33,644 nt of DNA from Bacteroidota bacterium (GTDB lineage Bacteria > Bacteroidota > Bacteroidia > Bacteroidales > VadinHA17), in contig JAUZNW010000019.1 of the NCBI GenBank assembly GCA_030706785.1, positions 1 to 33,644 on the forward strand, given 5' to 3'. Made by a program: the position numbers and the translations under genes. Positions 1,874 through 26,556 of the stretch are shown piece after piece. Under the pieces are notes generated by a model. It saw only the letters and a list, made by a program, of their open reading frames with translations, searched no databases and was not told the origin of the DNA. Each line of letters opens with the position of its first letter. The stretch's first letter is position 1.

Positions 1874-1883
1874 TTATTCTTTG

Positions 1884-2561
1884 ATGAAACAACCCGATTC
1901 CAGCTTTAATTCCCTAATCATTGGGCTTCAGCTACTTGACAGCTACCTGTCTTATAAATATTTTTACGACGATAATAAACTAAACTCCGAAATGGAAAAT
2001 ATTTCAGTTTTGGAAAGAAGAAATATAAGCAACAAGTTCACCGGTGAGGTCTTTGATAGCAAAACTCTGCCGGCCGATAATGCCAGGGTCAATCCTCTCC
2101 TTGAAAACATCCTCTCGGAGGGAGGTGATGACTTTTTCATGTACATGAAACTTACAGGACTGGCAAAAGAACCAAACCTTATGGTCCTTTCATCAATGCA
2201 TCATTATTATTATGACCATGACGACCTGAAAGGGATCAATACACTTATCAACATTAAGAAGCTCAATCAGATAAAGCATCTTGAAAGTTTTTTGCACACT
2301 CTTTACAGGATAATGCCATCAAAAGCGTATTTTGTAGGTTGTTTCAGGAACATGAATCATAAAGGAAAGGGAATTCTTTTCTATCAGTCTTCCAAGTTTT
2401 TAAGCGGACTGATGAATATTTTCGATTCGAGAAATGAGAGGAACATTTCAAAGAAAAGTGCGGTGAAGCTGCTTGAAGGGCATGGATTCAAGGTATTGGA
2501 TGTAACAGACATAAACGGTATGTCTTATTTCTGGGCCCAGAACATGAGGAGGTCAGGCTGA
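1884..2561 (+). CDS. Orphan methyltransferase-like protein, tandem paralog 2
   Basis: Homologous by eye to ORF 1057-1641 over about 160 aa. The ORF track starts at TTG 1881; ATG at 1884 (MKQPDSSF) is the more likely start. Confidence 0.7.
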   Translation: MKQPDSSFNSLIIGLQLLDSYLSYKYFYDDNKLNSEMENISVLERRNISNKFTGEVFDSKTLPADNARVNPLLENILSEGGDDFFMYMKLTGLAKEPNLMVLSSMHHYYYDHDDLKGINTLINIKKLNQIKHLESFLHTLYRIMPSKAYFVGCFRNMNHKGKGILFYQSSKFLSGLMNIFDSRNERNISKKSAVKLLEGHGFKVLDVTDINGMSYFWAQNMRRSG

Positions 2562-2677: not shown

Positions 2678-4132
2678 ATGGATGTATTCAACACCTTAAT
2701 CCGGCTCAGGATAATTCCATTCCTTGAAAGATGGAATCTAATTAATCTGATCCTGGGATTAATTGATGTCCTTGCTATTGCTGTAGCGTTTCAGCTGGCT
2801 TTTACCTTCAATTATTACGGAGAGGGGCCATTCTTCTTTTTCCAGAGAAAAGATATCACCTTTATCTTCCTGGCAATACTTCCACTCTGGCTGATAACAC
2901 TTTACATTATTAATGCAACAGAGATCCCGAGGACGAAAAGATACAGTACTCTTTTATTTGAATACCTCCAGTCGGCTGTTGTGGTCAGTGCTCTTCTTTT
3001 GATCTTCTATTTTGTGTTTAAGCTTGGTTATCTTTCCAGGCTCTTCCTTATCGAATTCGCCTTTATCGGTTTCCTTTTCCTGCTCTTTGCGAGGACTTTT
3101 GAGTACAAGGTATTCAAAATCTACAGGGCCAAAGGTTTCAACTATGTGAATCTGATCCTTATTGCGGACGAAACCGCTATTCCGTTTATTGAAGATATCC
3201 GCCTGAATATAGACTGGGGTTACCGGATAACCTTTATTTTCTCAAGCTCGGAGCAAATCATTGATAGATACGGAAGGACCTACAAAATACTTCCCGAAAA
3301 AACCAAAATGGTGCTTCATGACCTGATGGAGATAGATACAATAGATGAGGTAATATATTTAAAGAAGGAGATAAATCCTGCCGAAGTAAGAAAAACAATA
3401 AGGTCATGCGAAGAGCTTGGGGTAGTTTTCAGGATGAAATACAGGAACCTCCAGATAAACCTTACAAACGCCTTTACATCAGTTATAGGGAATGAGAAGT
3501 TCCTCACATTCATAAATGTCCCTTACAAGCCTGTTGCCCTCGCCACTAAGAAGTTCATGGACATTAATTTCTCCATAATTCTCTTATTGCTGTTGTCACC
3601 AGTTATGCTGATCATAGCACTTTTAGTGAAGCTCACCTCAAGAGGACCTATAATTTACAGGCAGGCAAGAGTAGGGTTGCGCGGCCGCCAGTTTGACCTT
3701 TACAAGTTCAGGACCATGGTTGTTGGTGCCGATAAGATCAGGACCGATCTTGAATCGAAGAATGAGATGGACGGACCAGTATTTAAAATAAAGGATGATC
3801 CCCGCATAACCACATTAGGCAAATTTCTTCGCAGGACAGGATTTGATGAATTGCCTCAGCTCATAAATGTCCTGAAAGGTGAAATGTCACTCATTGGGCC
3901 GCGGCCTCCGTTAAAGACTGAAACAGAACAGTATAAGAGATGGCAGCTGCGAAGGCTTTCAGTCAAGCCAGGACTGTCGTGCTTCTGGCAGATCATACCT
4001 GACCGTAACAATGTAAGATTTGAAAAATGGATGGAGATGGACCTTGCATATATAGATAATTGGTCACCTCGATTGGATTTTATAATTTTGCTCAAAACCA
4101 TAAAAACTGTTTTTCAAAGAACAGGTATTTGA
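2678..4132 (+). CDS. Exopolysaccharide biosynthesis polyprenyl glycosylphosphotransferase (WcaJ/WbaP-like initiating sugar transferase)
   Basis: N-terminal TM segments, then 'GPIIYRQARVGLRGRQFDLYKFRTM', 'KDDPRITTLGKFLRRTGFDELPQLINVLKGEMSLIGPRPP', 'KPGLSCFWQI'. Confidence 0.95.
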   Translation: MDVFNTLIRLRIIPFLERWNLINLILGLIDVLAIAVAFQLAFTFNYYGEGPFFFFQRKDITFIFLAILPLWLITLYIINATEIPRTKRYSTLLFEYLQSAVVVSALLLIFYFVFKLGYLSRLFLIEFAFIGFLFLLFARTFEYKVFKIYRAKGFNYVNLILIADETAIPFIEDIRLNIDWGYRITFIFSSSEQIIDRYGRTYKILPEKTKMVLHDLMEIDTIDEVIYLKKEINPAEVRKTIRSCEELGVVFRMKYRNLQINLTNAFTSVIGNEKFLTFINVPYKPVALATKKFMDINFSIILLLLLSPVMLIIALLVKLTSRGPIIYRQARVGLRGRQFDLYKFRTMVVGADKIRTDLESKNEMDGPVFKIKDDPRITTLGKFLRRTGFDELPQLINVLKGEMSLIGPRPPLKTETEQYKRWQLRRLSVKPGLSCFWQIIPDRNNVRFEKWMEMDLAYIDNWSPRLDFIILLKTIKTVFQRTGI

Positions 4133-4151: not shown

Positions 4152-4928
4152 ATGAAAAAACACACCAGCACCATCAGCAAGCTCTTTACTGCCATGCTAT
4201 TAGCAGCATTAATAAGCTCATGCGTACCAACAAGTCAGTTAAGTTATTTTAACGATATAGATCAACTTGAAAAACCTTTAGCTAATCCTAAAATCCAAAA
4301 GACAATTGCTCCATTTGATAGGTTATACATCAGAGTATTAAGCACTGATCTGCAGACCAGGCAGATCTTTGATGTCCCCGAGGAGGCTCGTTATTCAACT
4401 GAAAGAACCAGCATCATGGGTTATCAGGTCGATGAAAGCGGAAACATTGTTTTCCCCTTCGTGGGCAAAATAAATGTTGCATCCCTCACGTTATCAGATG
4501 CCGGCACAAAAATCCAGAATGCTCTGAAGGATTATGTGGCAAATGCTGAAGTCGTAATTAAGTACATCGATAATCAGGTTTCTGTACTGGGTGAAGTTCA
4601 GAATCAGGGGGTTTTTTCATTCACCCAGGACAAGCTGAATATTTACGAAGCCCTGGCGCTGGGTGGTGGACTAACCAGATACGGGAACCGGAAAAACATC
4701 ATTCTTATCAGGCAGGAGGGAGACAAGATCATGCACCACAAACTCAATCTGGCGGATTCAAAAATTGCAGGCAAGGATTTTTACTATATTTTGCCGAATG
4801 ATGTTATTGTAGTAGAACCTTTGAAATCTGTATCAACAAGTTATCCGAATGTTACCTACCAATCGATATTATCCACGATAACAACGCTGATTGCAATTCT
4901 GGTGCTTTATTTCAACGTAACTCGGTAA
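4152..4928 (+). CDS. Polysaccharide export outer-membrane lipoprotein (Wza-like)
   Basis: Lipoprotein signal 'LLAALISSCVP'; Poly_export/SLBB-like 'IAPFDRLYIRVLSTD', 'GNIVFPFVGKINVASLTLSDAGTKIQNALKDY', 'VSVLGEVQNQGVFSF'. Confidence 0.92.
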   Translation: MKKHTSTISKLFTAMLLAALISSCVPTSQLSYFNDIDQLEKPLANPKIQKTIAPFDRLYIRVLSTDLQTRQIFDVPEEARYSTERTSIMGYQVDESGNIVFPFVGKINVASLTLSDAGTKIQNALKDYVANAEVVIKYIDNQVSVLGEVQNQGVFSFTQDKLNIYEALALGGGLTRYGNRKNIILIRQEGDKIMHHKLNLADSKIAGKDFYYILPNDVIVVEPLKSVSTSYPNVTYQSILSTITTLIAILVLYFNVTR

Positions 4929-4943
4929 AAACTAAAAGGTAAA

Positions 4944-7310
4944 ATGTTAAAGACCATAGAACCGGATTCATCAATTGCTCCTTTAAAGTACTTTCTTCTG
5001 AAAGTTGCTTCGCTGAAGTATTTGTACATAGTTTTAATAGTGGTATGCCTTGTCGCCGCATTTCTCTACAATAAATTCGCCGTGAAGGTTTATGAGGCGT
5101 CGGCCTCACTGAGGCCCTCAGAGAACAAAACAAATACAATCCTTAGCTCCAATCAACTGTTCAGCGGGCTTCAGTCATTGCAGTCACTTAACAACATTGA
5201 AAATGACGTGACCAGCCTGAGCTCGTTTGAACTGGTATATTCAACGGCTACAAGCATGAACCTTGAAATCAGCTACTTCAGGGAATCATCAAAACTCCTG
5301 GGCCAGACGATCGAACTTTACGGCAATTCTCCATTTACTGTAAGCCTTGACAAATCACATATCCAGCCTATAGATGCCAAGATTTATTTAACCGTCCTTG
5401 ACGAATCCTCGTTCAGGCTTACCTTATCGCAAAAACACGTTTCATTATATAACTACGTTGATAATAAAATTGTCAGTGAGGATAATACGATCCAACTCGA
5501 TACTATCTGTAATTTCAACGCAACTATTAGTAACAAGATACTCAGCTTTTCGGTTGCCCTGAACAGAGAAAATCTGAGCAGGAATTCAACTGAGAAATAC
5601 AATTACTATATAAAATTCAACCATCTTGATTTCCTTGCAAAGGGATACCTTAAGAAGCTTGATGTAGAAAAAGCCACACCACTTGCATCAATAATCAATA
5701 TTAAATTTTCAGAAAACAATCTAGATAAGACAATCACCTTTCTGAACAGGTATCTTGACGCATTCCTCGATGATAATCTGACAAAAAAGAACAATGTTGC
5801 TAGGAGCACAGTGAATTTTATTGATAAGCAGATAACAGAAAGAACCGACTCACTTGTTCAGTCTGAGTCAGCCCTGAGAAACTACAAATCGGCAAACCAG
5901 GTAATGGACCTCAGTTTCCAGGGTCAGAGGATATATGAACAGATGACACAGATTCAGAACCAACGTGCTCAGCTCCAAGCTACACAGAGGTATTATAACT
6001 ATGTGATCAACTCATTCAAAATGGATCAGGATGTATTAACAGCTCCATCAGCCATGAACGTCAGTGACCCTATTGTCAATCAGCTCATCACTGCACTTAA
6101 TGACCTGATTAGCCAGCGGGCAACAGCAATTGGAGGCAGCAATCCTCAGAAGAACATTTTCCTGCAAACTATCAACGACAAGATAAATACGCAGAAACAA
6201 ATAATCCTCGAAAACTTTACCAGTAACCTTAATACACTGGAGCTTAACCTTAAAGAGCTGGATTATAGGGAAAGCAGACTTTCTCAGGATATATCAAAGC
6301 TCCCGAGGACCGAGATGAACATGGTGAGTATGCAGAGGAAATTCAATGTGAATGACGCAATATATACCTACCTTCTCCAGAAGAGGTCAGAAGCAGCAAT
6401 ATCACTAGCATCCAATTATCCAGATTATGATATAATTGAACCTGCAAGGGCAATTACATCCAAGATAGTCTCCCCGAAAAAAACAATAAACTATCTTATG
6501 GCGCTATTTTTCGGCCTATTTATTCCCACTCTTTACTTACTAATCAGAGACTTCTTTGATGACAAGATCAGGAGCATAAACGATGCCGAATATATACTCC
6601 ACCGTTCGGTCCTGAGCATAATATACAGCAATAACCTTAAGAGTGAAGCTGTTGTTGCTGAGTTCCCGAAATCTGCCATATCTGAATCTTTCAGGAATCT
6701 TCGAAGCAGTCTGTTCCTGAAATCAGATCACGAGAAGTCAAAGGTCATATTGATCACATCATCACAGCCGCAGGATGGTAAGAGCTTTGTATCACTGAAC
6801 CTGTCATCCTCGATTGCATCTGTCGGTTATAAAACAATCCTGATTGATTGTGATCTGAGACGTCCGACACTGCATATCAAGCTCAAGGAGGATAACGCAA
6901 AAGGGCTTACCAACTTCATGATAAAGAAGGCTTCAGCCGAGGAAATTGTCAGGAATACCACTATACCAAATCTTGATTTCATTTCTGCCGGACCTGTAAT
7001 ACCCAATCCCTCGGAAATGCTGGAATCAGGAGTACTCGACAGTCTGATAAATTATCTTAAGACAAAATATGATTATATCCTCATCGATACTACACCGATG
7101 GGAATAGTGGCTGATGCGGTACTCCTTATGAAGTATTCCTCAAAGGTGCTGATGATAATAAGAAACAACTTCACGAGGAAAGATATTTTTGCTACAGTTC
7201 TTAATAATATTAAAACCAATAAGTTATGTAATTACGACATTGTCTATAACGACCTCAGCCTTCATAAGAGCTCATACAGGCATTACAGTAATTACTACAT
7301 TAAGAACTAA
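4944..7310 (+). CDS. Polysaccharide co-polymerase with C-terminal BY-kinase (Wzc-like)
   Basis: N-terminal Wzz-type region with TM; Walker A 'TSSQPQDGKS', Walker A' 'TILIDCDLRRP', Walker B 'YILIDTTP'; Tyr-rich tail 'YRHYSNYYIKN'. Confidence 0.95.
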   Translation: MLKTIEPDSSIAPLKYFLLKVASLKYLYIVLIVVCLVAAFLYNKFAVKVYEASASLRPSENKTNTILSSNQLFSGLQSLQSLNNIENDVTSLSSFELVYSTATSMNLEISYFRESSKLLGQTIELYGNSPFTVSLDKSHIQPIDAKIYLTVLDESSFRLTLSQKHVSLYNYVDNKIVSEDNTIQLDTICNFNATISNKILSFSVALNRENLSRNSTEKYNYYIKFNHLDFLAKGYLKKLDVEKATPLASIINIKFSENNLDKTITFLNRYLDAFLDDNLTKKNNVARSTVNFIDKQITERTDSLVQSESALRNYKSANQVMDLSFQGQRIYEQMTQIQNQRAQLQATQRYYNYVINSFKMDQDVLTAPSAMNVSDPIVNQLITALNDLISQRATAIGGSNPQKNIFLQTINDKINTQKQIILENFTSNLNTLELNLKELDYRESRLSQDISKLPRTEMNMVSMQRKFNVNDAIYTYLLQKRSEAAISLASNYPDYDIIEPARAITSKIVSPKKTINYLMALFFGLFIPTLYLLIRDFFDDKIRSINDAEYILHRSVLSIIYSNNLKSEAVVAEFPKSAISESFRNLRSSLFLKSDHEKSKVILITSSQPQDGKSFVSLNLSSSIASVGYKTILIDCDLRRPTLHIKLKEDNAKGLTNFMIKKASAEEIVRNTTIPNLDFISAGPVIPNPSEMLESGVLDSLINYLKTKYDYILIDTTPMGIVADAVLLMKYSSKVLMIIRNNFTRKDIFATVLNNIKTNKLCNYDIVYNDLSLHKSSYRHYSNYYIKN

Positions 7311-7359: not shown

Positions 7360-7617
7360 ATGAATACTGACGCTAATGCCATCAGGGAAAAGGTTAAGGA
7401 ATACATTCAGCAGACAACTTTTGTTGATAAGGAGAAGATAAAGAATGATTCCCTGATATTCAAGGAAGGCTATTTCGATTCGATGGGCTTTGTTGTTCTT
7501 ATTACTTATCTTGAAGAAAACTTCGGAATAAAAACTACTGATTCTGACCTTATTGAAGAGAACTTCGAATCAATAAACGCTATTACAGATTTTATAGTTC
7601 GCAAAAGCATTAACTGA
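7360..7617 (+). CDS. Acyl carrier protein
   Basis: 85 aa with phosphopantetheine-attachment-like 'FDSMGFVVLITYLEENFGI' (DSM). Confidence 0.9.
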   Translation: MNTDANAIREKVKEYIQQTTFVDKEKIKNDSLIFKEGYFDSMGFVVLITYLEENFGIKTTDSDLIEENFESINAITDFIVRKSIN

Positions 7618-7619
7618 TA

Positions 7620-9584
7620 ATGTGCGGTATCGCCGGCATAGTTGATTACAGGAACAAGCTTCTAAAGAAAGATGTAATCGAAGGAATGCTTCGTTCAATC
7701 TGCTATCGTGGTCCGGATGAGAGTGGCATTTATTCTTCATCTTTCGCCTGCCTTGGACATACCCGACTTAGCATAGTAGACCTTTCAACCGGACAGCAGC
7801 CACTGTCGGATCCATCGGGCAGGTACTGGATCATCTTTAACGGAGAGATTTTCAATTATCCTGAGCTCAGGGATCTGCTCCTCAAAAAGGGAAATATCTT
7901 CAGGACACATTCTGACACGGAAGTACTGGTTCAGCTATATGCGGCGTATGGAAAAGATTGCCTTTCAATGCTTAACGGACAGTTTGCATTTGCCATCTGG
8001 GATAAAAAATCTGAAGAGGTTTTTCTTGCGCGCGACAGGATAGGAATCCGCCCGTTGTTTTATAATACATCCGGTGACAGGCTGGCGTTCGCATCAGAAA
8101 TAAAATCACTCTTTGCTCTGGATGATATTAGCCGCGAATTTTCGTATAAAAAGCTTTCTGACATTTATACCTTCTGGACAGCCATAACTCCGGGAACAGC
8201 CTTTCGTGATATTTATGAGCTGTCACCCGGTCACTTTCTGATTTATAACAGGAAAGGGATAACAATAGGGAAATATTGGGAGCTGACATATAATGATACT
8301 GGCAGCATTCTGCCGCTCAATAAGGCGCTTGATCAGTTCAACGAGCTTTTTTATGATGCCGTGAGAATAAGACTCAGGGCTGACGTTGAGGTTGCCGCTT
8401 ATCTCAGCGGCGGGATCGACTCTAGTTCCACGGTTGCCTATATAAAAAATATTGAGCCCGGAGTTCTAAATACATTTTCAATCGGATTCGACGATAAGAA
8501 TTTTGATGAATCATCCTACCAGAGTGAAGCCGTCAGTTATCTGAATACCCGACACAAGTCAATAACCTGCACATCAAAGGAGATTTCAGAGATATTTCCG
8601 AGAGTGATATGGCATACTGAAACTCCGGTTACCAGGACCGCACCCGCCCCGATGCTCCTTTTGTCAGGACTTGTAAGGGATAACAATATAAAGGTGGTTA
8701 TAACAGGAGAAGGGGCTGACGAAATGCTGGCCGGCTATGACATTTTCAAGGAAGCAAAGATCAGAAGGTTCTGGGCAAAGCAGCCGGATTCTGCAATCCG
8801 CCCAAAACTGCTTAAACGACTTAATCCCTTCCTTCCGCAGATGAAGGATGCCAATCCGGCAATTCTTAAAATGTTTTATGGCTATAAGCTTGAGGATATT
8901 GACAATCCATTCTATTCGCACCTTTTAAGGTGGAATAATTCGAATCATATAAAGAAACATCTGACACAACAGGTCAAGTCTGAAATCGAGGGCTATTCAC
9001 CAACAGATCATCTCAGGGAGAATCTTCCGGCGGGATTTGACAGATGGAATTATCTTGAGAAATCTCAGTGGCTTGAGACTTCGATATTCATGTCGGGATA
9101 TCTTCTATCTTCACAGGGCGACAGGATGGCTATGGCTAACTCGGTTGAAGGTCGTTACCCGTTCCTCGACTATCGTGTAATTGAGTTCTGCAACAGGCTT
9201 CCGGCTGATTATAAGCTTCATGGACTAAATGAAAAATATCTGCTTAAGAAGCTGATGTTGAATAAGATCCCGGATTCAATCATAAAGAGGGCCAAGCAGC
9301 CGTACAGAGCCCCGATAAAAAACGCTTTCATGCAGAGTCGGTCTGAATACCTGAAGGAGATCCTTTCACAGGAGTATTTCAGCAAAGCAGGCATTTTTGA
9401 CTTTAATTCAATCTCTGGCGTGCTTCAGAAAATAGAAAGAACCGGGAACTCAACAGAGGTTGATGATATGATCCTTGTCGCGGTCATATCGACACATCTG
9501 CTATATAAACAGTTTATAGAAGGTTTTAAAGAAAACCTGAACGGCAGAAAGTTAAGCAACCTTAAGACCATAGAAGAGACGTAA
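7620..9584 (+). CDS. asnB: Glutamine-hydrolysing asparagine synthase-like amidotransferase
   Basis: N-terminal 'MCGIAGIVDY' (Ntn Cys2), 'YRGPDESG', PP-loop 'AAYLSGGIDSSSTVAYI', 'VITGEGADEMLAGY'. Confidence 0.93.
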   Translation: MCGIAGIVDYRNKLLKKDVIEGMLRSICYRGPDESGIYSSSFACLGHTRLSIVDLSTGQQPLSDPSGRYWIIFNGEIFNYPELRDLLLKKGNIFRTHSDTEVLVQLYAAYGKDCLSMLNGQFAFAIWDKKSEEVFLARDRIGIRPLFYNTSGDRLAFASEIKSLFALDDISREFSYKKLSDIYTFWTAITPGTAFRDIYELSPGHFLIYNRKGITIGKYWELTYNDTGSILPLNKALDQFNELFYDAVRIRLRADVEVAAYLSGGIDSSSTVAYIKNIEPGVLNTFSIGFDDKNFDESSYQSEAVSYLNTRHKSITCTSKEISEIFPRVIWHTETPVTRTAPAPMLLLSGLVRDNNIKVVITGEGADEMLAGYDIFKEAKIRRFWAKQPDSAIRPKLLKRLNPFLPQMKDANPAILKMFYGYKLEDIDNPFYSHLLRWNNSNHIKKHLTQQVKSEIEGYSPTDHLRENLPAGFDRWNYLEKSQWLETSIFMSGYLLSSQGDRMAMANSVEGRYPFLDYRVIEFCNRLPADYKLHGLNEKYLLKKLMLNKIPDSIIKRAKQPYRAPIKNAFMQSRSEYLKEILSQEYFSKAGIFDFNSISGVLQKIERTGNSTEVDDMILVAVISTHLLYKQFIEGFKENLNGRKLSNLKTIEET

Positions 9585-9594
9585 ATCCATACCG

Positions 9595-10587
9595 ATGAAA
9601 ACCAGGAAACCCTTTTCAAAAGAAATTGTCTTGCTCGAAGACGTTGAAAAAGCGATAAACGAAATTATTGGGAAGCTTCAGCAGGATGTACTGGTAAATT
9701 TCAAGCGGACAGGAGGCGTCGTTGGGATCAGCGGGGGAATAGATTCTTCTGTATGTCTTGCTCTGTCCGCCAGGGCATTCGGTTCTGACAAGGTTGTTGG
9801 GATAATCATTCCCGAAAAAGATTCAAGTCCTGAAAGCGAGGAACTTGCTCTTGAGCTTGCGGGTAAATTCGGCGTAAGGACGATCAAGGAAGTAATAACA
9901 AATGCGCTTTCAGGATTCAAATGCTATGAAAGACGCGATGAAGCTGTGAAAAGAGTGTTTCCGGAGTATGATCCGACAACTTACAAAATGAAGATAGGGA
10001 TCAGGCAGACCGGACTATATAATAATCTGCCTCCAATTTTCATGCTGACTATTATTGATGATAAAGGGAATCAGCAGGATAAGATCCTGCACGCCAGGGA
10101 ATATCTCCAGATAGTCGCTGCTTCAAATTTCAAGCAGCGTTCAAGGATGTCGATCCTTTACTATCATGCCGAAGCGCTTCATTTTGCAGTTATTGGCACT
10201 CCCAACAAGCATGAGCAGGAACAGGGATTTTTTGTTAAATACGGCGATGGCGGCGCTGATGTTATGCCCATCGGAAACCTTTACAAGACACAGGTTTACC
10301 AGCTTGCTGAATTCCTCGGAGTACCTCAAAGAATCATTGAGAGGACTCCGACAACGGATACATATTCTGCAACACAGACCCAGGAAGAGTTCTTTTACCA
10401 GCTTCCTTTCAGGCTGATGGACATATACTGGTTTGGGTACGAAAACGGATACTCACCTGAAGAGGTGTCCGCAGTTATGGGGGAAACTCCGGAGAGGATC
10501 GATGCACTTTTCAAGAATTTTGAGAGGAAGCGCAAGACTACGGAATATCTGAGAATGCCCCCCATAAGGGATTATTACTGTGAATAA
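9595..10587 (+). CDS. NAD synthase (NadE)-like ATP-pyrophosphatase amide synthetase, divergent, no nitrilase domain
   Basis: 'GVVGISGGIDSSVCLALSARAFG', 'RSRMSILYYHAE', 'VIGTPNKHEQEQGFFVKYGDGGADVMPIGNLYKTQVYQLAEFLGVP'; an apparently long segment between 'NALSGF' and 'NFKQRSRM'. Confidence 0.85.
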   Translation: MKTRKPFSKEIVLLEDVEKAINEIIGKLQQDVLVNFKRTGGVVGISGGIDSSVCLALSARAFGSDKVVGIIIPEKDSSPESEELALELAGKFGVRTIKEVITNALSGFKCYERRDEAVKRVFPEYDPTTYKMKIGIRQTGLYNNLPPIFMLTIIDDKGNQQDKILHAREYLQIVAASNFKQRSRMSILYYHAEALHFAVIGTPNKHEQEQGFFVKYGDGGADVMPIGNLYKTQVYQLAEFLGVPQRIIERTPTTDTYSATQTQEEFFYQLPFRLMDIYWFGYENGYSPEEVSAVMGETPERIDALFKNFERKRKTTEYLRMPPIRDYYCE

Positions 10588-10598
10588 AACCAAAAAGC

Positions 10599-12059
10599 AT
10601 GAATGCATTTGACTATTTCTTTGAGAAGACCTCGGACCTTGAAAAACCATTCCTGGTCGGGAAAGAAACTCTTTCATTCAAAGATCTTTATACTTCATCT
10701 CTTCTGCTGGCTTCATGGCTGAGAAAAGAGTTCGGTATAAACAGGAATATACTGCTCCTTTCCATCAATAACCAGTTTTTCCTGATCGCCTATTTTGCTA
10801 TCATAAAATCTGGAAATGTCTGTATACCACTGGATCCAAATATAGAAAAGGGAAATCTTGAATATATTTCAGGACTCACAAAACCGGTCCTCATTTTTAT
10901 GACCCGGGACGTTGAACGTAAGCTGGGGCTTAAATTTGAAAGATGCATCTTCCCTGATACGATTAGTAATCCTGAATTTAAAGTACAGTTTTCATATGAT
11001 GACCGTAATTTTAACAGGGAAGCCTGTGCTGAGATAATATTTACTTCAGGTTCAACTGGTATACCAAAGGGTGTAATGATCTCTCACAAGAACCTTAAAG
11101 CAAATACAGAGTCTATCATAACTTACCTCAGGCTGACCGATGACGACAGGATGCTTGTAGTCCTGCCTTTCTACTATTGTTATGGATTGTCCCTGCTTCA
11201 TACCCATCTGCGGGTGGGCGGATCAATAGTTTTCAACAATGCATTTATTTTCCTCGGTGGCATCCTAAATAACCTGCTTGAATACAAATGCACAGGTTTT
11301 GCCGGTGTGCCAAGCCATTATCAGATCCTACTCCGCAAATCGGATAACTTCAAAAAAACAAAGTTCCCCGATCTAAGGTATGTTACACAGGCCGGAGGAA
11401 AATTGGCACCTATTTTCATTGATGAATTCCGTGAAAGTCACCCGGAAATCAGGTTTATTGTCATGTATGGTCAGACCGAAGCTACGGCACGGCTGTCGTG
11501 GCTTCCTCCTGAATTATATGAAGCCAAAAAGGGCTCGATGGGAAAAGGAATTCCGGGAGTGGAACTCAGGGTTGTAAATGAAAAGGGCAGGAATATTAAG
11601 CCCGGTGAAACAGGTGAAGTCATAGCCCATGGAGATAATATAATGCTTGGCTACTTTGCAGATGAAGAGGGAACCAAAAATGTGATCAGGAACGGATGGC
11701 TTTATACAGGTGATCTCGGTACAGTCGATGATGACGGATATATTTATCTTACAGCCCGGAAGAAAGAGATAATCAAAGTGGGTGGAAAGAGGATCAGTCC
11801 GAAGGAAATTGAGGCGGTAATTCTCGAGCTTCCTGAAGTAATTGATTGCACTATTGAAGGCGTTGAAGATGAGTTGCTTGGGGAGGCTCTTAAAGCAATC
11901 ATTGTAATCAGGCCGGAGAATGGGAAGGAAGTCATGGTAGACAGAATAAAGCAGCACTGTGCTGCAAAACTGGCGCTTTTCAAGGTACCTCAGGTATTTG
12001 ACTTAAAGGAACAGCTGGTTATAAGTCCAACCGGGAAAAAGATCAAGGGCAAGCTCTGA
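10599..12059 (+). CDS. AMP-forming acyl-CoA synthetase / acyl-ACP ligase (ANL superfamily)
   Basis: A3 'IIFTSGSTGIPKGVMISH', 'VMYGQTEAT', 'GWLYTGDLGTVDDDGYIYLTARKKEIIKVGGKRISPKEIE', C-terminal 'SPTGKKIKGKL' lysine. Confidence 0.93.
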   Translation: MNAFDYFFEKTSDLEKPFLVGKETLSFKDLYTSSLLLASWLRKEFGINRNILLLSINNQFFLIAYFAIIKSGNVCIPLDPNIEKGNLEYISGLTKPVLIFMTRDVERKLGLKFERCIFPDTISNPEFKVQFSYDDRNFNREACAEIIFTSGSTGIPKGVMISHKNLKANTESIITYLRLTDDDRMLVVLPFYYCYGLSLLHTHLRVGGSIVFNNAFIFLGGILNNLLEYKCTGFAGVPSHYQILLRKSDNFKKTKFPDLRYVTQAGGKLAPIFIDEFRESHPEIRFIVMYGQTEATARLSWLPPELYEAKKGSMGKGIPGVELRVVNEKGRNIKPGETGEVIAHGDNIMLGYFADEEGTKNVIRNGWLYTGDLGTVDDDGYIYLTARKKEIIKVGGKRISPKEIEAVILELPEVIDCTIEGVEDELLGEALKAIIVIRPENGKEVMVDRIKQHCAAKLALFKVPQVFDLKEQLVISPTGKKIKGKL

Positions 12060-12060
12060 C

Positions 12061-12474
12061 ATGATAATAGATCATATCTGTTTTGCAGTAAAGAACCTGG
12101 ATGAGGGAATTGCTTACTGGGAGAGAGTTTTCGGATACCGGCAAATGACCAGGATGGTCGTAAATTCCCTCCAGAAGGTTAAAGTTGTCTTCATGCGGAA
12201 GGACAACAGCCTGACCATTAAACTCATTGAACCACTGGAAGATAATATTTCACTCCTGAATTTTGTGAATCGTGGCGGAGGTTTTCATCATCTTTGTTTC
12301 AAGTGCGATAATATTGATAAGGAGCTCAAGGATCTGAAGGAAAAAGGTTTGATATCTCTGGTTCCGCCACAACCAGGAGAGGCTTTCAATAATCATAATA
12401 TTGCATTTGTCCTGGCCAGGTACGGGATGAATATCGAAATAATCGATACTGACAAAAAGGCTGATTTACTTTAA
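12061..12474 (+). CDS. VOC superfamily protein, methylmalonyl-CoA epimerase-like / glyoxalase-like
   Basis: 'IDHICFAVKNLDEGIAYWERVFGY', 'FHHLCFKCDNID', 'GMNIEIID' match VOC fold repeats and metal-ligand positions. Confidence 0.85.
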   Translation: MIIDHICFAVKNLDEGIAYWERVFGYRQMTRMVVNSLQKVKVVFMRKDNSLTIKLIEPLEDNISLLNFVNRGGGFHHLCFKCDNIDKELKDLKEKGLISLVPPQPGEAFNNHNIAFVLARYGMNIEIIDTDKKADLL

Positions 12475-12478
12475 ATTC

Positions 12479-15169
12479 CTACCTTTTGATTAGCCTTGCT
12501 GAAACAACCACTCTTCCATTCTGACAAACATTGAGGACATAGTATCCCGGAGGCAATGCAGGCCTGACTGAAACTGGAGTATTGGAAGGTACCTTCATCT
12601 GATCATAGATCTTACGGTTGCTTAGCGTTTCGATAATCAACCTGTATGTGGTTGAATATGGCGACTTTATATTGAGAGTGAATCCGTCGATGAAGGGATT
12701 GGGATAAATATCAGCTCTGACATCAGAAGAAAATACAGCAGAAATAGTGTGATCAGAATATACATTGTTAAATGTATAATAGCTTACCGGTCCGACCGGA
12801 TCAGTATCTATAAAGACATTTGAAATCCTGAAGCCTGGTTCAGGCGTGATCGTATAAGATTGTTCATCTCCCTCGAAAACAGTTTTTGTACCTTCAGGTG
12901 TAACCGATCCGTTTTTGCCAGATGCAGATGTTATAGAAAAAGTCTGCAGTCTTGTAAAAATGGCTGTAAGTGTGTGATCAGAGACGACCTTCTTAAAAGT
13001 GTATTTTCCAGATTCCAGGTTTACGGGTAATCCATCAACATTAACCTGGATTATTTTATATCCGTAATCAGGGGTTATGATAAAACTCTGATCTGAACCT
13101 ATCTGTACCTGAGTTGGTCCCCCCGGAGTGACCGAACCGCCAGAGTTTGAAGCCACAGAGATATCAAAGGTAATAGGTTTGAAAATCACTGATATAGCGT
13201 GATTGGAATTAATATCTGTAAATGAATATACAGTAACTGCACCAACTGAATTATTATCTAAAAGCACATCAGAAATCACAAATCCTGCATCCGGAGTAAA
13301 GGTATAATTCTGACTTCCTCCTTCGGCTACTGTAACCGTACCTTCCGGATTAATTTTACCGCCTGCTCCTGCAGTGCCTTTCAAATTATACATTGTCTTC
13401 GCAAAACCTGCTGAAATCGTATGGTTTGAGGTCACATCCCTGAATGTATATTCAGATACCGAACCTGCAGAAACATTGTCGATCTTCACATCACTGATAT
13501 GATAACCCTTATTTGCATTAATTTTAAAAGTCTGATCAGAATCATAATTGACAGAAACACTCCCTTTTGGACTGATATCACCACCACTTCCTGCATTTGC
13601 AGAAATAGTAATGCTAATTCTTTTAAAGGAGGCATAAATGGTATGATTGCCTGAAATACTGCTGAACTTGTAGGAAGACCGTGCTCCAACTGAAGTATTA
13701 TCCACCTTTACGTCGGTTATCTGATATCCCTGATTTGCCAATATGCTGAAAGTCAGATCGGAACCTCCACCTGCAGCCACTGATCCTGATGGATTTATAG
13801 TTCCACCGGTTCCTGAGCTTGCAGTTATTGTATATCCTTTTCCGTTGATCTGTGAAATCTCATCATCGGTGAGGACGCGGTTATACAATCTTACATCGTT
13901 TATCTGCCCTTCGAAATATGTTCCGGTCTGAATTGCCTGACCGAGAATGAATTCAGGAGTAGAATAGTTAGTAATAGCCGTACCGGTTGAAATGGTTTTA
14001 TCGAGTACACCGTTAATATACAGCTTCAATGTGCTTCCATTATCTGTCATCGTTACAGTTGACCATGCAGCAGCCGAGACTGAAGAGGATGAAGTTACCA
14101 TTCTCGAATTACCGTCATATATTCGTGCGGTAATCCTACCGTCGGATGTCATAAACATGTTCCTGTCATTTTTGGATGAACCGGGATATTCCGACATTGA
14201 AGCAATATCCATTGCCTTTATCCTTGCCGGTCTGATCCTGAGAGATATGGTGAATGAAGAATAGTTGTTACCTTTCAGGGTCATAAAATCATCATTTCCG
14301 TCGAAAATATAAGCCCCTGCTTCTGCCTGTGCAGGTCCGGGAGAGGTTATTGCATCTCCCTTAAGGATGCTGGATTTATCGCTTCCGGCATCAACTATTT
14401 TAATGAATTTATGATCACCGGACGGAACCCTGTCGGTGTACCATGTCCAGCGTCCGTTGTTGATGAAGATAGCTCTTATGCTGGTGTAAAGATCAGGCAT
14501 ATTAAAGCTTCCGTAGGTCCATGTTATGCCGTCAGGCACAGTTATATCGGTAAAATTTCCATTATCACAGCCAAGCATCCAGACATCTTTACGGTATTTT
14601 ACAGCAAGTTCCCTGACTGCTCTGTTAATACCTGCATGATGACGATGTCCGTACTCCCCCCAGTTGTTATGTGTAATAACCCTCTTCATAGAGGGATCAG
14701 CTATAAATTGTTCGAGCTTGGCTTTTATTTTGTTTATTTCGTAATCGGACAGGTTTGTGGTATTGCTTGAAAGCCTCGTTTCAAGATGATCATTTACCAG
14801 GTAATTATAAGCGGGATCGGCTGCAAGGTAATACTGGGAGTATTCAACGTCAGTAATGTCATCCCAGGGCGTATACCAGTTCGATTCATAGGCTATGTTG
14901 TAGCCGTTGTTATTAAGATAAACCTGCTCCTGCTGGGCAACAGTTCTGTAACGTGGTGTTGCAGGCATTGCACCACTGATAAATTTTTCAGTTATTTTCC
15001 AGAACGGAAGCATCCAGATCAGGTCATCATCCATATGAGCATAGATCAGTATTGTACCGCTTTTAGGTATGGTGCTGAAATCGATTCTTGTACCCTGTGA
15101 TTCTGCTGAGATAAAATTTAGAACAAAAAGGACTAAAATCGGGAATATTTTTAGAACCGGTGTCCTCAT
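12479..15169 (-). CDS. Secreted multidomain protein: PIG-L/LmbE-like deacetylase + LamG-like + five InlB-type beta-repeats + type IX secretion-like C-terminal sorting domain
   Basis: Signal peptide 'MRTPVLKIFPILVLFVLNFISAES'; 'GTILIYAHMDDDLIW' and 'ITHNNWGEYGHRHHAGI' (PIG-L-like HxDD and HxxH signatures); LamG-like 'AYIFDGNDDFMTLKG...GQINDVRLYNRVLTDDEI'; tail 'ADIYPNPFIDGFTLNIKS...PPGYYVLNV...ARLIKR'. Confidence 0.85.
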   Translation of the reverse strand: MRTPVLKIFPILVLFVLNFISAESQGTRIDFSTIPKSGTILIYAHMDDDLIWMLPFWKITEKFISGAMPATPRYRTVAQQEQVYLNNNGYNIAYESNWYTPWDDITDVEYSQYYLAADPAYNYLVNDHLETRLSSNTTNLSDYEINKIKAKLEQFIADPSMKRVITHNNWGEYGHRHHAGINRAVRELAVKYRKDVWMLGCDNGNFTDITVPDGITWTYGSFNMPDLYTSIRAIFINNGRWTWYTDRVPSGDHKFIKIVDAGSDKSSILKGDAITSPGPAQAEAGAYIFDGNDDFMTLKGNNYSSFTISLRIRPARIKAMDIASMSEYPGSSKNDRNMFMTSDGRITARIYDGNSRMVTSSSSVSAAAWSTVTMTDNGSTLKLYINGVLDKTISTGTAITNYSTPEFILGQAIQTGTYFEGQINDVRLYNRVLTDDEISQINGKGYTITASSGTGGTINPSGSVAAGGGSDLTFSILANQGYQITDVKVDNTSVGARSSYKFSSISGNHTIYASFKRISITISANAGSGGDISPKGSVSVNYDSDQTFKINANKGYHISDVKIDNVSAGSVSEYTFRDVTSNHTISAGFAKTMYNLKGTAGAGGKINPEGTVTVAEGGSQNYTFTPDAGFVISDVLLDNNSVGAVTVYSFTDINSNHAISVIFKPITFDISVASNSGGSVTPGGPTQVQIGSDQSFIITPDYGYKIIQVNVDGLPVNLESGKYTFKKVVSDHTLTAIFTRLQTFSITSASGKNGSVTPEGTKTVFEGDEQSYTITPEPGFRISNVFIDTDPVGPVSYYTFNNVYSDHTISAVFSSDVRADIYPNPFIDGFTLNIKSPYSTTYRLIIETLSNRKIYDQMKVPSNTPVSVRPALPPGYYVLNVCQNGRVVVSARLIKR
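12725..13837 (-). repeat. Five tandem protein repeats of about 74 aa (InlB B-repeat/'bacterial repeat' type) in the 12479-15169 protein
   Basis: Five successive units of the form 'hxhxAxxGGxIxPxGxVxVxxGxxQxFxIxPxxGYxIxDVxVDxxxVGxxxxYxFxxIxxNHTIxAxF'. Confidence 0.85.
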
Positions 15170-15356: not shown

Positions 15357-15887
15357 CTAACTGATGTCGAAATGTTCTTTAACAAGTTTATCCTTCTGGG
15401 AGACCGTAAGACCATGCGTTTTCAGCAATCCGGGATTCTGACGGAAAAGCATTTTCTGGACGTTTGTTTTGGACACTATCTGTGCAGGATTTCCTGTAAT
15501 GATTGAATTATCAGGGAAATGACCCCTGATCACGCTTCCGGCTCCCACAATGCAGTTATCACCAATTGTTGTATTTGAAAGAATTATGCAATTTATCCCT
15601 ATGAAAACATTGTTGCCGATAGAGATCTTACCAAACACTCCACCTTCTATCTCTTCGAAACACCAGGTTGCGCCATCATGGGTAATAAACTCCGTTTTAG
15701 CAGCTACAGCAGTGTGATTACCGATTTCTATCAGGTAGGGTTCAGTTGAAAATGACATTGTCCTGATCCTGCATCTCTCCCCTATCTTAACTCCCAGCTT
15801 CCTGAGGTATTTGACTCTACTCTCATCACTAACCTTGAGCATAAGCAATTTAAATATGCTCTCCCAGATCCTTTTTATTGTATCCAT
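15357..15887 (-). CDS. Hexapeptide-repeat (left-handed beta-helix) acyltransferase
   Basis: 'IEIGNHTAVAAKTEFITHDG...GKISIGNNVFIGINCIILSNTTIGDNCIVGAGSVIRGHFPDNSIITGNPAQIV'. Confidence 0.9.
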   Translation of the reverse strand: MDTIKRIWESIFKLLMLKVSDESRVKYLRKLGVKIGERCRIRTMSFSTEPYLIEIGNHTAVAAKTEFITHDGATWCFEEIEGGVFGKISIGNNVFIGINCIILSNTTIGDNCIVGAGSVIRGHFPDNSIITGNPAQIVSKTNVQKMLFRQNPGLLKTHGLTVSQKDKLVKEHFDIS

Positions 15888-15894
15888 ATTATTA

Positions 15895-16623
15895 TTAATT
15901 CACAGATTTTGATTCGATTACATCAATAATGAATTGTGAAAAAAGAGGGGAAACCCGCGAGGAAAAAACTGCATTCGGGTGTGAATTTCCAGGCCCCTCT
16001 GAATACTCATCCTTAAGATATAATTCTCCCTCCGTTTCAAGTTTGTAAAAATCCCAAATATAAATGTTGTCGTTCCTTTCTTTCCATTCACCTATCATCC
16101 AGTCATGAAATTCAGCTGTTCTTTTTGCCTCATCCTCTGAAATCAGAGCCTTTATATGAACAGCCGGCGTCCAGATTATGAATTTATTATCAGGAAGACT
16201 ATGCATCTTGTCTTTAAGAGCATTATACTGGAGCTTATAGTTATCAAGACTCTTATCTTCGGAATTTATGTCGGAATTTCCTGTATTAGGCTGTATCTTG
16301 CTCACGGGGTAACAATGCTTAAAAATTATTATATCATATTCGCCTGTAAGAATTTCAAGAGTAGGTTCCTCCATGTACATGGCAAGGCCGGAGTTTTTTA
16401 CCCATATATTGTAATAATCGAATGGATAGTTTTTCCATCCGTATGGAGAGGCTTTCGGAAAGAAAAGCTCCTTTATTGAATAATCTTTTCCATTGGTTTT
16501 ATTATAGGAGTTGAAATATTCCTGAACACTGTTTTTTCCTGTGATTTTGTTCACCAGTTTATTAACCCCTCCGAGCCAGATGTTCTGACCTGTACTGTGG
16601 TGCAGAAAAATTGCTTTTTTCAT
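15895..16623 (-). CDS. Conserved-looking protein, possible SGNH/GDSL-like hydrolase
   Basis: N-terminal 'AIFLHHSTGQNIW' with potential Ser and late 'GNSHPNAVFSSRV' His; overall layout resembles the SGNH fold but family assignment is weak. Confidence 0.45.
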   Translation of the reverse strand: MKKAIFLHHSTGQNIWLGGVNKLVNKITGKNSVQEYFNSYNKTNGKDYSIKELFFPKASPYGWKNYPFDYYNIWVKNSGLAMYMEEPTLEILTGEYDIIIFKHCYPVSKIQPNTGNSDINSEDKSLDNYKLQYNALKDKMHSLPDNKFIIWTPAVHIKALISEDEAKRTAEFHDWMIGEWKERNDNIYIWDFYKLETEGELYLKDEYSEGPGNSHPNAVFSSRVSPLFSQFIIDVIESKSVN

Positions 16624-22050: not shown

Positions 22051-22593
22051 TTAATCAACAATATCATTCACCCAGTCCCCAACAGGGTTTTCCTTAATAA
22101 TATACCTTGCCGGGAATCCTGAAACCATTGCATTATCAGGCACATCAAAATTCACTACTGAATTCGGGGCAATAAATACGTTATTCCCGATCTTTATCTT
22201 ACCTACTACCACTGCTCCCGGACCTATCCAAACATTATCGCCGATTATTGGTCTGCCAATCTGGCCATTTCTATATGCTCTTCCAATGGTAACATTGTGT
22301 GAAACACAGCAATTTTTTCCTATTGTTACAGGTCCGATAAAAACCGTTCCTCTGTGATACAGATAAAATCCCTCTCCGATATGGGCCTCAGGACTAATCT
22401 GATACTCCTTATAAGCAAACAGCCTTCGTAATATTCTGAACCATATGCCTTTAAGAGTGAACTTTTTATGCTTGACTATCATCCTCAGCAAAAATGTGTA
22501 TCGAAAGCCGGGGAAAAACCATCCCTGAATAAATCCTTTTATTCCTGACAATTTCCCGTATCTGTATAAATCTCCCTTGACTACTTCGTCCAT
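22051..22593 (-). CDS. Serine-acetyltransferase-like hexapeptide acyltransferase
   Basis: 'YHRGTVFIGPVTIGKNCCVSHNVTIGRAYRNGQIGRPIIGDNVWIGPGAVVVGKIKIGNNVFIAPNSVVNFDVPDNAMVSGFPARYI'. TAATG overlap with the upstream gene. Confidence 0.9.
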   Translation of the reverse strand: MDEVVKGDLYRYGKLSGIKGFIQGWFFPGFRYTFLLRMIVKHKKFTLKGIWFRILRRLFAYKEYQISPEAHIGEGFYLYHRGTVFIGPVTIGKNCCVSHNVTIGRAYRNGQIGRPIIGDNVWIGPGAVVVGKIKIGNNVFIAPNSVVNFDVPDNAMVSGFPARYIIKENPVGDWVNDIVD

Positions 22594-24272
22594 TATCTCA
22601 AAAAATCCAATAAATTCCGCCTGTGGTAGGTGTATGCATCTATGATCATAAAATCATGATCGCTGTTGAATGTATGCATACCTTTAAATTTTTTATCCCA
22701 GACTGGCTTATTTTTATAAATTTCTTTTTCCTCATAACCTGTTTCCGAAAGCTCAATAATTTCGTTCAGATTCAATGAGTTGCCGTACCTCACTGAACAA
22801 TCCTGTGACGGACGGTAAATCCTGCCGCTGCTTATGAACAAATTGCCTGCAGGCCTTGCCTTTCTTGCATCTGCAACAACTGGATTCATAGGGTGGCTTT
22901 CCCAATGGTCAGAAAAAGGAGAATCGGAATAAAAGAGAAAGAGTTCTGTTTCACATCCGGAAATGCCTTCAGTTTCATCGATCACAGTGAAGAGCCACCA
23001 TTTATTATTATGGAAAAACAATGTCGTATCAACTGCCTTCAGATCTTTCATTATTGTTTTCATAAACACCCACCGGTCAGGGAAATATGTGCAACGATAC
23101 AGATCTATGGTCCTGTTCTCACTTGATTCTGGGATCATGAAATAGGTTTCATCATACTTAAATATAAATGGATAGGACAAATGATAAGGTTTGTCAAGAA
23201 TGATCTGCCTGTCAAGGAGGTTCGCTGATGAATCAAGTGTGAGAACTGAAAGATGAGCCCTGTTCTTCCTGTAGATAAATTCCTCAACAAAAATATAATG
23301 GTTGCCGTCTTTAGAAATAACAAAAGGATCTGCCCAGAATTTACCTTTCGTCGGGTGAATCGTTTTGAATCCAGTGAAATTATCCTGGAATGATTCCACC
23401 TGATCGCGCTTACCTGAACCGAAACAGAGTACCCAGCTGAATGCGTCTGTGTAAAATATCTTTTTGATCATCTTCCGGATAGTAATTGATGCATTCCGGA
23501 AAATATTTTCTGTTGCTTCAGCAGTCTCAGGCAACCGGTACTGGAGGCCGATGATTTCATTTTCCTGCTTATTCTTGTCAATAAGCGCATTAAGGTAGTT
23601 TTTACCTCCCCTCTGCAATCCGGCCAGAACCCTGAAAATAAAGAGGGATGACCGCCAGAATATTTTATTCCTTGTAATCTTGATCGAATATGAACAGGTT
23701 GATTCATAGGACGATTCTATCACCTTATCACCCCCTTCCCAAGCATTTTGGATAGCAAGACTTGCTTGTGTTACCGGTTCAACCGTCACCACTTCACGAT
23801 ATCCTGCCGTCAGTCCTGCAGTTCCGTTTTTCCCAGACATTGGAAAGTACCAGACTCCATAGGAGGGGAATTCAAGAATTTCCCCCTTTAAGGTACCAGA
23901 TCCAAAACTAAGGATGACATCCAGTTCATATTTCCTGATCTCCGAAAGTGTTATTTCATCAAACAGCCATTCACCTCCTTCCGATTTTTTAACGGAAATA
24001 CCTGGGACTGTATCAACGAGTTTCCGGATGTCTTTTTCTTTTGAATAGCTATCTTTCCCTCCAAAAATAATATTGTCTAACTTTTCATGGAAGCGTATTA
24101 CAGGATTTATTCGATGAAGAGCCTTTGGTTGGAGTGAACTGTCCGGAGATTCGACAATCAAAAGCTTAATTTCGGCATGATCACTGTTCCTCAACCCTGC
24201 AATAACGGAGTATTGCCAGGCCTGAATCAGGAATCCATCAAGTAAAACTCCTATTTTAAGCTTTCCGGTCAT
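22593..24272 (-). CDS. Two-domain protein: formyltransferase-like N-terminus + GINT1/GH43-like beta-propeller C-terminus
   Basis: N-term 'DVILSFGSGTLKGEILEFPSYGVWYFPMSG'; C-term 'GKFWADPFVISKDGNHYIFVEEFIYRKNRAHLSVLTL', 'YHLSYPFIFKYDETYFMIPESSENRTIDLYRC'. Confidence 0.7.
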   Translation of the reverse strand: MTGKLKIGVLLDGFLIQAWQYSVIAGLRNSDHAEIKLLIVESPDSSLQPKALHRINPVIRFHEKLDNIIFGGKDSYSKEKDIRKLVDTVPGISVKKSEGGEWLFDEITLSEIRKYELDVILSFGSGTLKGEILEFPSYGVWYFPMSGKNGTAGLTAGYREVVTVEPVTQASLAIQNAWEGGDKVIESSYESTCSYSIKITRNKIFWRSSLFIFRVLAGLQRGGKNYLNALIDKNKQENEIIGLQYRLPETAEATENIFRNASITIRKMIKKIFYTDAFSWVLCFGSGKRDQVESFQDNFTGFKTIHPTKGKFWADPFVISKDGNHYIFVEEFIYRKNRAHLSVLTLDSSANLLDRQIILDKPYHLSYPFIFKYDETYFMIPESSENRTIDLYRCTYFPDRWVFMKTIMKDLKAVDTTLFFHNNKWWLFTVIDETEGISGCETELFLFYSDSPFSDHWESHPMNPVVADARKARPAGNLFISSGRIYRPSQDCSVRYGNSLNLNEIIELSETGYEEKEIYKNKPVWDKKFKGMHTFNSDHDFMIIDAYTYHRRNLLDFLR

Positions 24273-25416: not shown

Positions 25417-26556
25417 TTATTCTTCGATCAATGGCAGGTTTGGATCAGGTCTTGCACCTCTTGTATCAGTATAAGGTGTCATCCGGGAATAATTAAGGTC
25501 ACCCTGCAGAGGATCCTGTCCGACATTATAATATGGTATTTTATCAAAGTAGATTTTCTTCCCAAGGAGAGTCCTGAACTTGTTCTCTGCTATCCATTGA
25601 GCAGGATGTCTGATATATTTTTTCATTACCGGTGCTGCTGTACCAACCATCCAGCAGTTTTTCGGGCATATTTTTACCATTTCACGCACACGGGTGGCCT
25701 GCTCACTGTACCACAGGTCCCGAAATGTGGCAAAATCATGAATATTTCCCATGCTCTCCTTCCATATGCCATCTTCAAGTCCATTGCATGGATAGACATC
25801 TCCGTACGGCTCAATGAAGAAGTTTGCGGTACCTGCCTCACATGGAAGCATTCTTTTTCCTCCTTTTATGTAATTAATAAGTCCAAGGTTAAAGAAAGCG
25901 CGCGCCCAGCTTTTAGGATTCTTCTCGTTGAGCAGGTCCATAATCAGCGTATTAAAATGACCAGTTACAGTCTCCTTGTTGGTGATCTGGTTATCGTACT
26001 TATGAAAATAGAAAGAATTATGGAAGGCAGCGGTGGCAAATTCCAGCTTCATCTCCCTTGCAAGCCTGTAGAGCCATAACATGTCTTCGGAATTATGATT
26101 GGAAACAGTAATGCCAAAACCGATATCCTTTAATCCCATCGACCTTAGTTTCAGCAGAACCTTAAGGCCGTTATCAAATCCTCCCTGCCGGCCCCGAAGA
26201 TCATCATTACGTTGTGACAAGCCCTCGATACTCACGCGGATCCCGATCTGCGGAAATTTTTGTGCAAGCTTTATTATCCGGTCATAATGCCAGCCAGAGG
26301 TTGAAATTACAACCCTTGGTGCTTTTGTGAAAAGGACTGAGATCAATTCCTCAAGATCATGCCTCTGAAAGGGCTCTCCGCCAGTCACATTGGCAAATTT
26401 CAATGCGGGTAGTATTTCGAGATCCTTTGCCTTTATTTCCCTGCTTCCGTCTGTGGGATATTTCCAGATATTGCACATTTTACATCGCATCTGGCATCTG
26501 TAGGTTGTAATTATTGATATGTCGGTCGGTAACGGAACTTTCTGATCGTTTCTCAT
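25417..26556 (-). CDS. Radical SAM protein with SPASM-like C-terminal cysteines
   Basis: 'TTYRCQMRCKMCNIW' (CxxxCxxC), 'NVTGGEPFQR'; later Cys at 'MLPCEAG', 'VYPCNG', 'KICPKNCW'. Confidence 0.9.
   Translation of the reverse strand: MRNDQKVPLPTDISIITTYRCQMRCKMCNIWKYPTDGSREIKAKDLEILPALKFANVTGGEPFQRHDLEELISVLFTKAPRVVISTSGWHYDRIIKLAQKFPQIGIRVSIEGLSQRNDDLRGRQGGFDNGLKVLLKLRSMGLKDIGFGITVSNHNSEDMLWLYRLAREMKLEFATAAFHNSFYFHKYDNQITNKETVTGHFNTLIMDLLNEKNPKSWARAFFNLGLINYIKGGKRMLPCEAGTANFFIEPYGDVYPCNGLEDGIWKESMGNIHDFATFRDLWYSEQATRVREMVKICPKNCWMVGTAAPVMKKYIRHPAQWIAENKFRTLLGKKIYFDKIPYYNVGQDPLQGDLNYSRMTPYTDTRGARPDPNLPLIEE

Follow-up and report, generated by a model that had tools for sequence, protein, structure and literature searches.

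Several described systems combine a carrier protein with an enzyme that loads it. In the exosortase A (XrtA)/PEP-CTERM set, an acyl carrier protein (ACP), an adenylating ligase, and AsnB lie within an exopolysaccharide (EPS) locus, and DltABCD also unites a carrier protein with an adenylating ligase. In the cispentacin pathway, AmcH is a 2-oxoglutaryl-ACP ligase, which loads a dicarboxylate onto ACP (PMC10698177). For Sinorhizobium meliloti, the ligase gene smb20650 is cotranscribed with the ACP gene smb20651 on pSymB; the ligase brings about acylation of ACP SMb20651 in Escherichia coli and does not replace FadD (PMC7232532), and the function of SMb20651 has been described as needing further investigation (PMC5686131). 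Here we examine a comparable gene set, which we call the “cassette,” on contig JAUZNW010000019.1 of assembly GCA_030706785.1, from a Bacteroidota bacterium of the VadinHA17 lineage. The window, that is, the whole stretch of DNA that we analyzed (33,644 nt), is the entire contig.

The cassette encodes an ACP (85 aa; 7360-7617; PF00550 [PP-binding], 6e-8), an AsnB-like glutamine-dependent amidotransferase (654 aa; 7620-9584; Asn_synthase and GATase_7), a NadE-like PP-loop protein without a glutaminase domain (330 aa; 9595-10587; NAD_synthase, 2e-48), and an adenylate-forming (AMP-binding) ligase (486 aa; 10599-12059; PF00501, 1e-63). A VOC/methylmalonyl-CoA-epimerase-like protein follows as an optional accessory (137 aa; 12061-12474; Glyoxalase_4, 5e-21). 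A first-pass annotation of this DNA had placed five tightly packed genes directly behind a wza/wzc pair and had read them as a candidate undescribed amide/acyl-modification pathway. The packing is confirmed by the open reading frames and their families: all five lie on the + strand, with gaps of 1-11 nt (in order 2, 10, 11, and 1 nt), and the spacer from wzc to the ACP gene is 49 nt.

The ACP, AsnB-like, NadE-like, and ligase genes form a conserved unit that stands apart from the housekeeping copies. To sample relatives, 396 Bacteroidota genomes were searched with the NF002048 model, which was exceeded at its cutoff in 13 of them, the source genome included, and GTDB representatives were scanned with an alignment of the NadE-like protein; this gave 573 candidate relatives, and we retrieved 80 of them, the presence of partner genes being no criterion. 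We then counted the 52 loci whose flanks extend 4.5 kb or more in both directions; they come from these 80, from another 12 Bacteroidota loci, and from the window (cassette loci are labeled here with L-numbers, such as L032). Although selected by the NadE-like protein alone, 47 of the 52 carry the complete four-gene set. Gene by gene, the ACP occurs in 51 (by a profile built from one cluster), AsnB in 50, the ligase in 49, and the VOC gene in 5. Where the flanks reach 1.5 kb, every cassette locus (72 of 72) has at least one partner within that distance, whereas no ACP, AsnB, or ligase gene lies so close to housekeeping nadE in any of 30 control loci from relatives. This recurrence in independent loci, set against its absence from the controls, excludes chance adjacency. 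The five-gene set of the first-pass annotation thus comes down to a four-gene core, and the VOC gene, at 5 of 52 loci, was rejected as a core member.

The linkage survives rearrangement, since gene order varies (ACP-AsnB-NadE-ligase, ACP-ligase-AsnB-NadE, and NadE-ligase-ACP-AsnB were all seen). Pairwise distances of the NadE-like and AsnB proteins agree closely (r = 0.89, with a permutation maximum of 0.16). Carriers belong to Bacteroidota, Chloroflexota, Acidobacteriota, Ignavibacteriota, Cyanobacteriota, Pseudomonadota, and others. We excluded an extension of this range to metagenome-assembled contigs of Methanosarcina (L084) and Eubacteriaceae (L072): both are probably mis-binned, because L084 shares 77% identity with the protein of the window and L072 groups with Lentimicrobium. 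A search of a phage collection gave no match. Across the genus, about 11 of 25 genomes have the NadE-like gene, a patchy distribution of the kind expected for an accessory surface trait.

For the cassette gene, the database name nadE is probably a misnomer. The window's NadE-like protein belongs to the NF002048/PRK00876 subfamily (417 bits against a curated cutoff of 313), and in a tree a very long branch with 100/100 support splits 96 such cassette proteins from 20 housekeeping copies. The PP-loop SGGxDS and the ATP-site motifs are retained in 97 of 97 cassette copies, and the GT-x-N...GDG...D...P motifs are also kept. However, the loop motif for deamido-NAD (NaAD), P[TS]AxL, is found in 0 of 97 cassette copies, which have PTTD instead, against 30 of 30 housekeeping controls, all of the glutamine-dependent NadE type; the motif also occurs in solved NadE sequences, including NH3-dependent ones. 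An AF2 model of the window protein (pLDDT 91) has the NadE fold, with 2e18 as the best PDB match (TMt 0.83). Compared with solved NadE and NMN synthetase structures (2e18, 1xng, and 3fiu; TMt 0.83-0.85), fold, PP-loop, and ATP-side motifs are shared; the window-type protein differs from these enzymes in an inserted segment around residues 105-170 as well as in its PTTD, and it is nearly always accompanied by ACP, AsnB, and ligase.

Because the deamido-NAD loop motif is lost and the ATP site is kept, the cassette NadE-like proteins are probably not NAD synthases. Judged from these residues, they probably adenylate and amidate a carboxylate other than deamido-NAD. The NF002048 model, although titled NAD(+) synthase, probably stands for the cassette clade and not for genuine NAD synthases. 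The first-pass annotation had described two adjacent amide-forming PP-loop enzymes; the correction to this is that the NadE-like one is without the NaAD-binding motif of NAD synthases.

The partner proteins retain their catalytic features. The AsnB-like protein scores 500 bits with TIGR01536, and in 67 cassette copies C2, R49, N74, G75, E76, D99, SGGxDS, and TGEGxDE are invariant; with glutaminase residues and synthetase motifs intact, it should still use glutamine for amide formation. Cassette AsnB separates from the genome's housekeeping AsnB and from second AsnB copies with support of 0.987. In the ACP, the phosphopantetheine motif reads D40-S41-x-G43, and G37, D40, S41, and G43 are invariant in 11 relatives; in L104, an AcpS gene directly follows the ACP gene. 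The ligase falls below cutoff with PRK06187 (310 bits), and its catalytic-site residues, including the C-terminal Lys, are conserved in 67 copies. Families and residues agree with the earlier idea of a carrier protein and a ligase plausibly able to load it. The VOC protein reaches 72 bits with TIGR03081 (methylmalonyl-CoA epimerase), below its cutoff of 115, and the His/Glu positions expected for metal binding are conserved in seven copies. As a side observation, a TAT-signal DUF362-type protein and a short protein come immediately after the cassette ACP in L090, L096, and L101.

The same four families are compactly adjacent outside Bacteroidota and outside EPS loci. In Sinorhizobium, Mesorhizobium, and Shinella, plasmid searches turned up the set as an operon standing by itself, and on S. 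meliloti 1021 pSymB it lies at 1450.6-1455.4 kb as asnB-ACP-ligase-nadE. The S. meliloti NadE-like protein scores 532 bits with NF002048 and shares the family and clade of the window protein (L149 and L153 are inside the cassette clade). The pSymB operon differs from the window in its gene order, in its place near minCDE outside any EPS locus, and in having no VOC gene inside. It is most likely the operon of SMb20650 and SMb20651, because among the pSymB regions examined an ACP gene adjoins an AMP ligase gene only at 1450-1455 kb. Ramos-Vega et al. (2009) reportedly assign to that operon both an NH3-dependent NAD synthetase and an asparagine synthetase.

Thus, the four genes are not without precedent: S. 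meliloti pSymB has them, and its ACP/ligase pair has been studied (PMC7232532). What stands of the claim “undescribed” is narrower. In the literature, we found nothing relevant on the full gene combination in an EPS or O-antigen context, and we saw the set described neither for EPS loci nor as a module shared across phyla.

In the window, the cassette is part of an EPS locus, as the earlier annotation had it, and more precisely of an amino-sugar EPS locus. Directly upstream, co-directional with it and separated by short gaps, are a polyprenyl glycosylphosphotransferase (2678-4132, +; PF02397), a wza-like gene (4152-4928, +; PF02563 [Poly_export] and SLBB), and a wzc-like kinase gene (4944-7310, +; GNVR and AAA_31). 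The order wza-wzc-ACP recurs in L032, L035, and L041. Downstream, on the opposite strand, the many glycosyltransferases together with one enzyme resembling FnlA and one resembling UDP-GlcNAc 3-dehydrogenase identify the locus as one for amino sugars. Because the window spans the entire contig, the EPS locus may continue beyond it. Two further genes on the − strand bear on acyl transfer: a hexapeptide acyltransferase, which is a candidate acceptor-side enzyme (15357-15887; PF00132, 4e-14; WbbJ-like, 66 bits), and an SGNH-like protein of what we call the FLHHSTG family (15895-16623), which matches no Pfam or NCBIfam family. The latter family is found in 11 other cassette loci, yet in only 3 of 396 genomes of the phylum. 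Its AF2 model (pLDDT 87) is nearest, by Foldseek, to PatB and carbohydrate esterases, with PatB the best match at a weak to moderate level (E 2e-4, TM ~0.5).

Some other genes of the window deserve mention in their own right. Tandem paralogues at 1057-1641 and 1881-2561 (+) match no family; their similarity is to sugar transferases of L061 and L079, in the N-terminal part of these. An 896-aa secreted-looking protein (12479-15169, −) starts with a PIG-L-like AHMDDD and contains LamG and InlB-type repeats, and a protein of the same length comes after the cassette in L032. A 559-aa protein (22593-24272, −) matches GINT1_N, a domain named from glucosamine inositolphosphorylceramide transferase, in its C-terminal part. 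Within the EPS glycosyltransferase cluster lies a Radical SAM/SPASM protein (25417-26556, −), whose NCBIfam matches are all far below cutoff.

Elsewhere, the neighbors of the cassette are lineage specific, and what unites them is the transfer of acyl groups from a carrier. A DltB-like MBOAT (TIGR04091, 174 bits) stands beside the cassette in about 10 of 93 loci, and MBOAT and SGNH-type proteins occur at L063, L064, L066, L076, L083, and others. Acyl_transf_3 is present in three proteins flanking the cassette, with acyltransferase 3 seen in Chloroflexota; Hexapep is matched by 10 of 95 cassette-flanking proteins in other loci; and a GNAT-like protein is found at the cassette in Bacteroidota and Alphaproteobacteria. 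Stand-alone nonribosomal peptide synthetase (NRPS) proteins of condensation-PCP-thioesterase type adjoin the cassette in L093 (11017-13569) and L107 (2767-5391). A PrmC/HemK-like methyltransferase lies beside or inside the cassette in L045, L046, L060, L078, L081, L086, and L147, with carriers in three phyla (Bacteroidota, Ignavibacteriota, and, for Mesorhizobium, a third); its family methylates glutamine amides, which hints at an amide-bearing product. Wza-like genes accompany 15 cassette loci and sugar transferases 10.

We put at about even the chance that the four-gene cassette builds an amidated acyl group on its dedicated ACP, which locus-specific acyltransferases then transfer to an acceptor. 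In such a pathway, the ligase would use ATP to activate a carboxylic acid and load it onto the ACP's phosphopantetheine arm. AsnB, fed by glutamine, and the NadE-like protein would act on a second carboxylate, borne by the tethered acid or by its precursor, adenylating it and converting it to an amide, the NadE-like protein drawing on free ammonia or on ammonia released by AsnB. Transfer may then fall to a DltB-like MBOAT with an SGNH protein, an acyltransferase 3, a hexapeptide or GNAT protein, or an NRPS condensation protein. In this genome, the likely acceptor would be an amino sugar of the EPS that the neighboring genes produce. Loading of the ACP by the ligase is likely by analogy, because the S. 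meliloti ligase acylates its ACP, if SMb20650/SMb20651 is the same operon. We infer the acid, the acceptor, and the amidation by AsnB and the NadE-like protein, the last from family chemistry.

Several points weigh against this proposal. The cassette ligase fits the unit less well than AsnB does (distances looser, r ~0.55), so that the ligase substrate may vary, and a few of the 52 loci are without AsnB or ligase. No acyltransferase family is universal among cassette loci. SMb20650 and SMb20651 were matched to the pSymB operon by elimination and not by locus tag, and a further, divergent ACP/ligase pair on pSymB is conceivable, because the Pfam ACP model missed the cassette's ACP there. Finally, several genomes carry the cassette without adjoining polysaccharide genes. 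EPS decoration in this genome is suggested by the context; since the cassette stands by itself in some genomes, that role is not general, and the tie to EPS in the first-pass annotation has to be given up in that form.

How, then, do other explanations fare? The automatic annotation, asnB and nadE, would suggest ordinary asparagine and NAD synthases lying together by happenstance. We rejected this as very improbable, because the genome has separate housekeeping copies of NadE (564-aa frame), AsnB (561-aa frame), and ACP (83-aa frame, G000:C2) on other contigs, the clades are distinct, and the NaAD motif is lost; in being a functional unit apart from housekeeping asnB/nadE, the set supports the earlier annotation. 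Resemblance to the XrtA set had been noted there too, with the proviso that the locus differs, and both parts are upheld. Among EPS-associated models, TIGR03098 and TIGR03108 are indeed the nearest to the window ligase and AsnB, but their 281 and 412 bits fall short of the curated cutoffs of 592 and 817, respectively. The window has the NadE-like gene where the XrtA set has a pyridoxal phosphate (PLP)-dependent decarboxylase, a family matched only below cutoff and on another contig, and no exosortase (PF09721) was found in the genome, whose assembly is 97% complete. A degenerate exosortase A EPS set is, on these grounds, scarcely credible, and XrtA/PEP-CTERM membership was rejected. Nor did we find a cispentacin-type relation convincing: AmcB is the best NCBIfam match of the window ACP, at 44 bits, which is below its cutoff of 80, and the cassette is without KS/CYF, aminotransferase, and thioesterase (PMC10698177).

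Two further alternatives share more with the neighbors described above. The ligase might charge the ACP with an amino acid (or beta/omega-amino acid), with which a DltB-like MBOAT and an SGNH partner would esterify a surface polymer, in the manner of DltABCD, with AsnB and the NadE-like protein making or tailoring that amino acid. DltC models are among the best matches of the ACP, the MBOAT beside the cassette matches DltB and in several loci has an SGNH-type protein for company, and the FLHHSTG protein is PatB-like in fold. Unlike DltABCD, however, the cassette has two amide-forming enzymes; the MBOAT is absent from most loci and from the window, where none lies beside the ligase and carrier genes (the only one in the genome is on another contig), and the best families of the ligase are acyl ligases, with amino-acid adenylation scoring lower. 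We regard this as unlikely. We are also doubtful that the cassette is a stand-alone small-molecule or lipid pathway, making a soluble amide or fatty amide, with its EPS location here incidental. Unrelated genes flank it in Xanthomarina, Gelidibacter, Shinella, Sinorhizobium, and others, and the adjoining NRPS proteins and the spread of the PrmC-like methyltransferase over three phyla would fit such a pathway; against it are the tight co-directional spacing with wza/wzc in the window and its relatives, the Wza-like and sugar transferase genes at other loci, and the recurrence of glycan acyltransferases.

Our wider proposal, to which we give somewhat less than an even chance, is of a cross-phylum, so far unnamed ACP pathway, in which a repurposed enzyme of the NAD-synthetase fold acts with AsnB to yield a doubly tailored, amide-bearing acyl group, for attachment in different lineages to EPS or other acceptors. 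If this were true, hundreds of genes labeled NAD(+) synthase would belong to it, and a whole branch annotated as such would be misnamed, being part of an uncharacterized multi-phylum pathway that includes the model symbiont S. meliloti. The NadE fold would gain a new activity, and bacteria a further route for placing amide-bearing groups on their surface sugars; it also gives a function to look for behind the S. meliloti ACP/ligase pair SMb20651/SMb20650.

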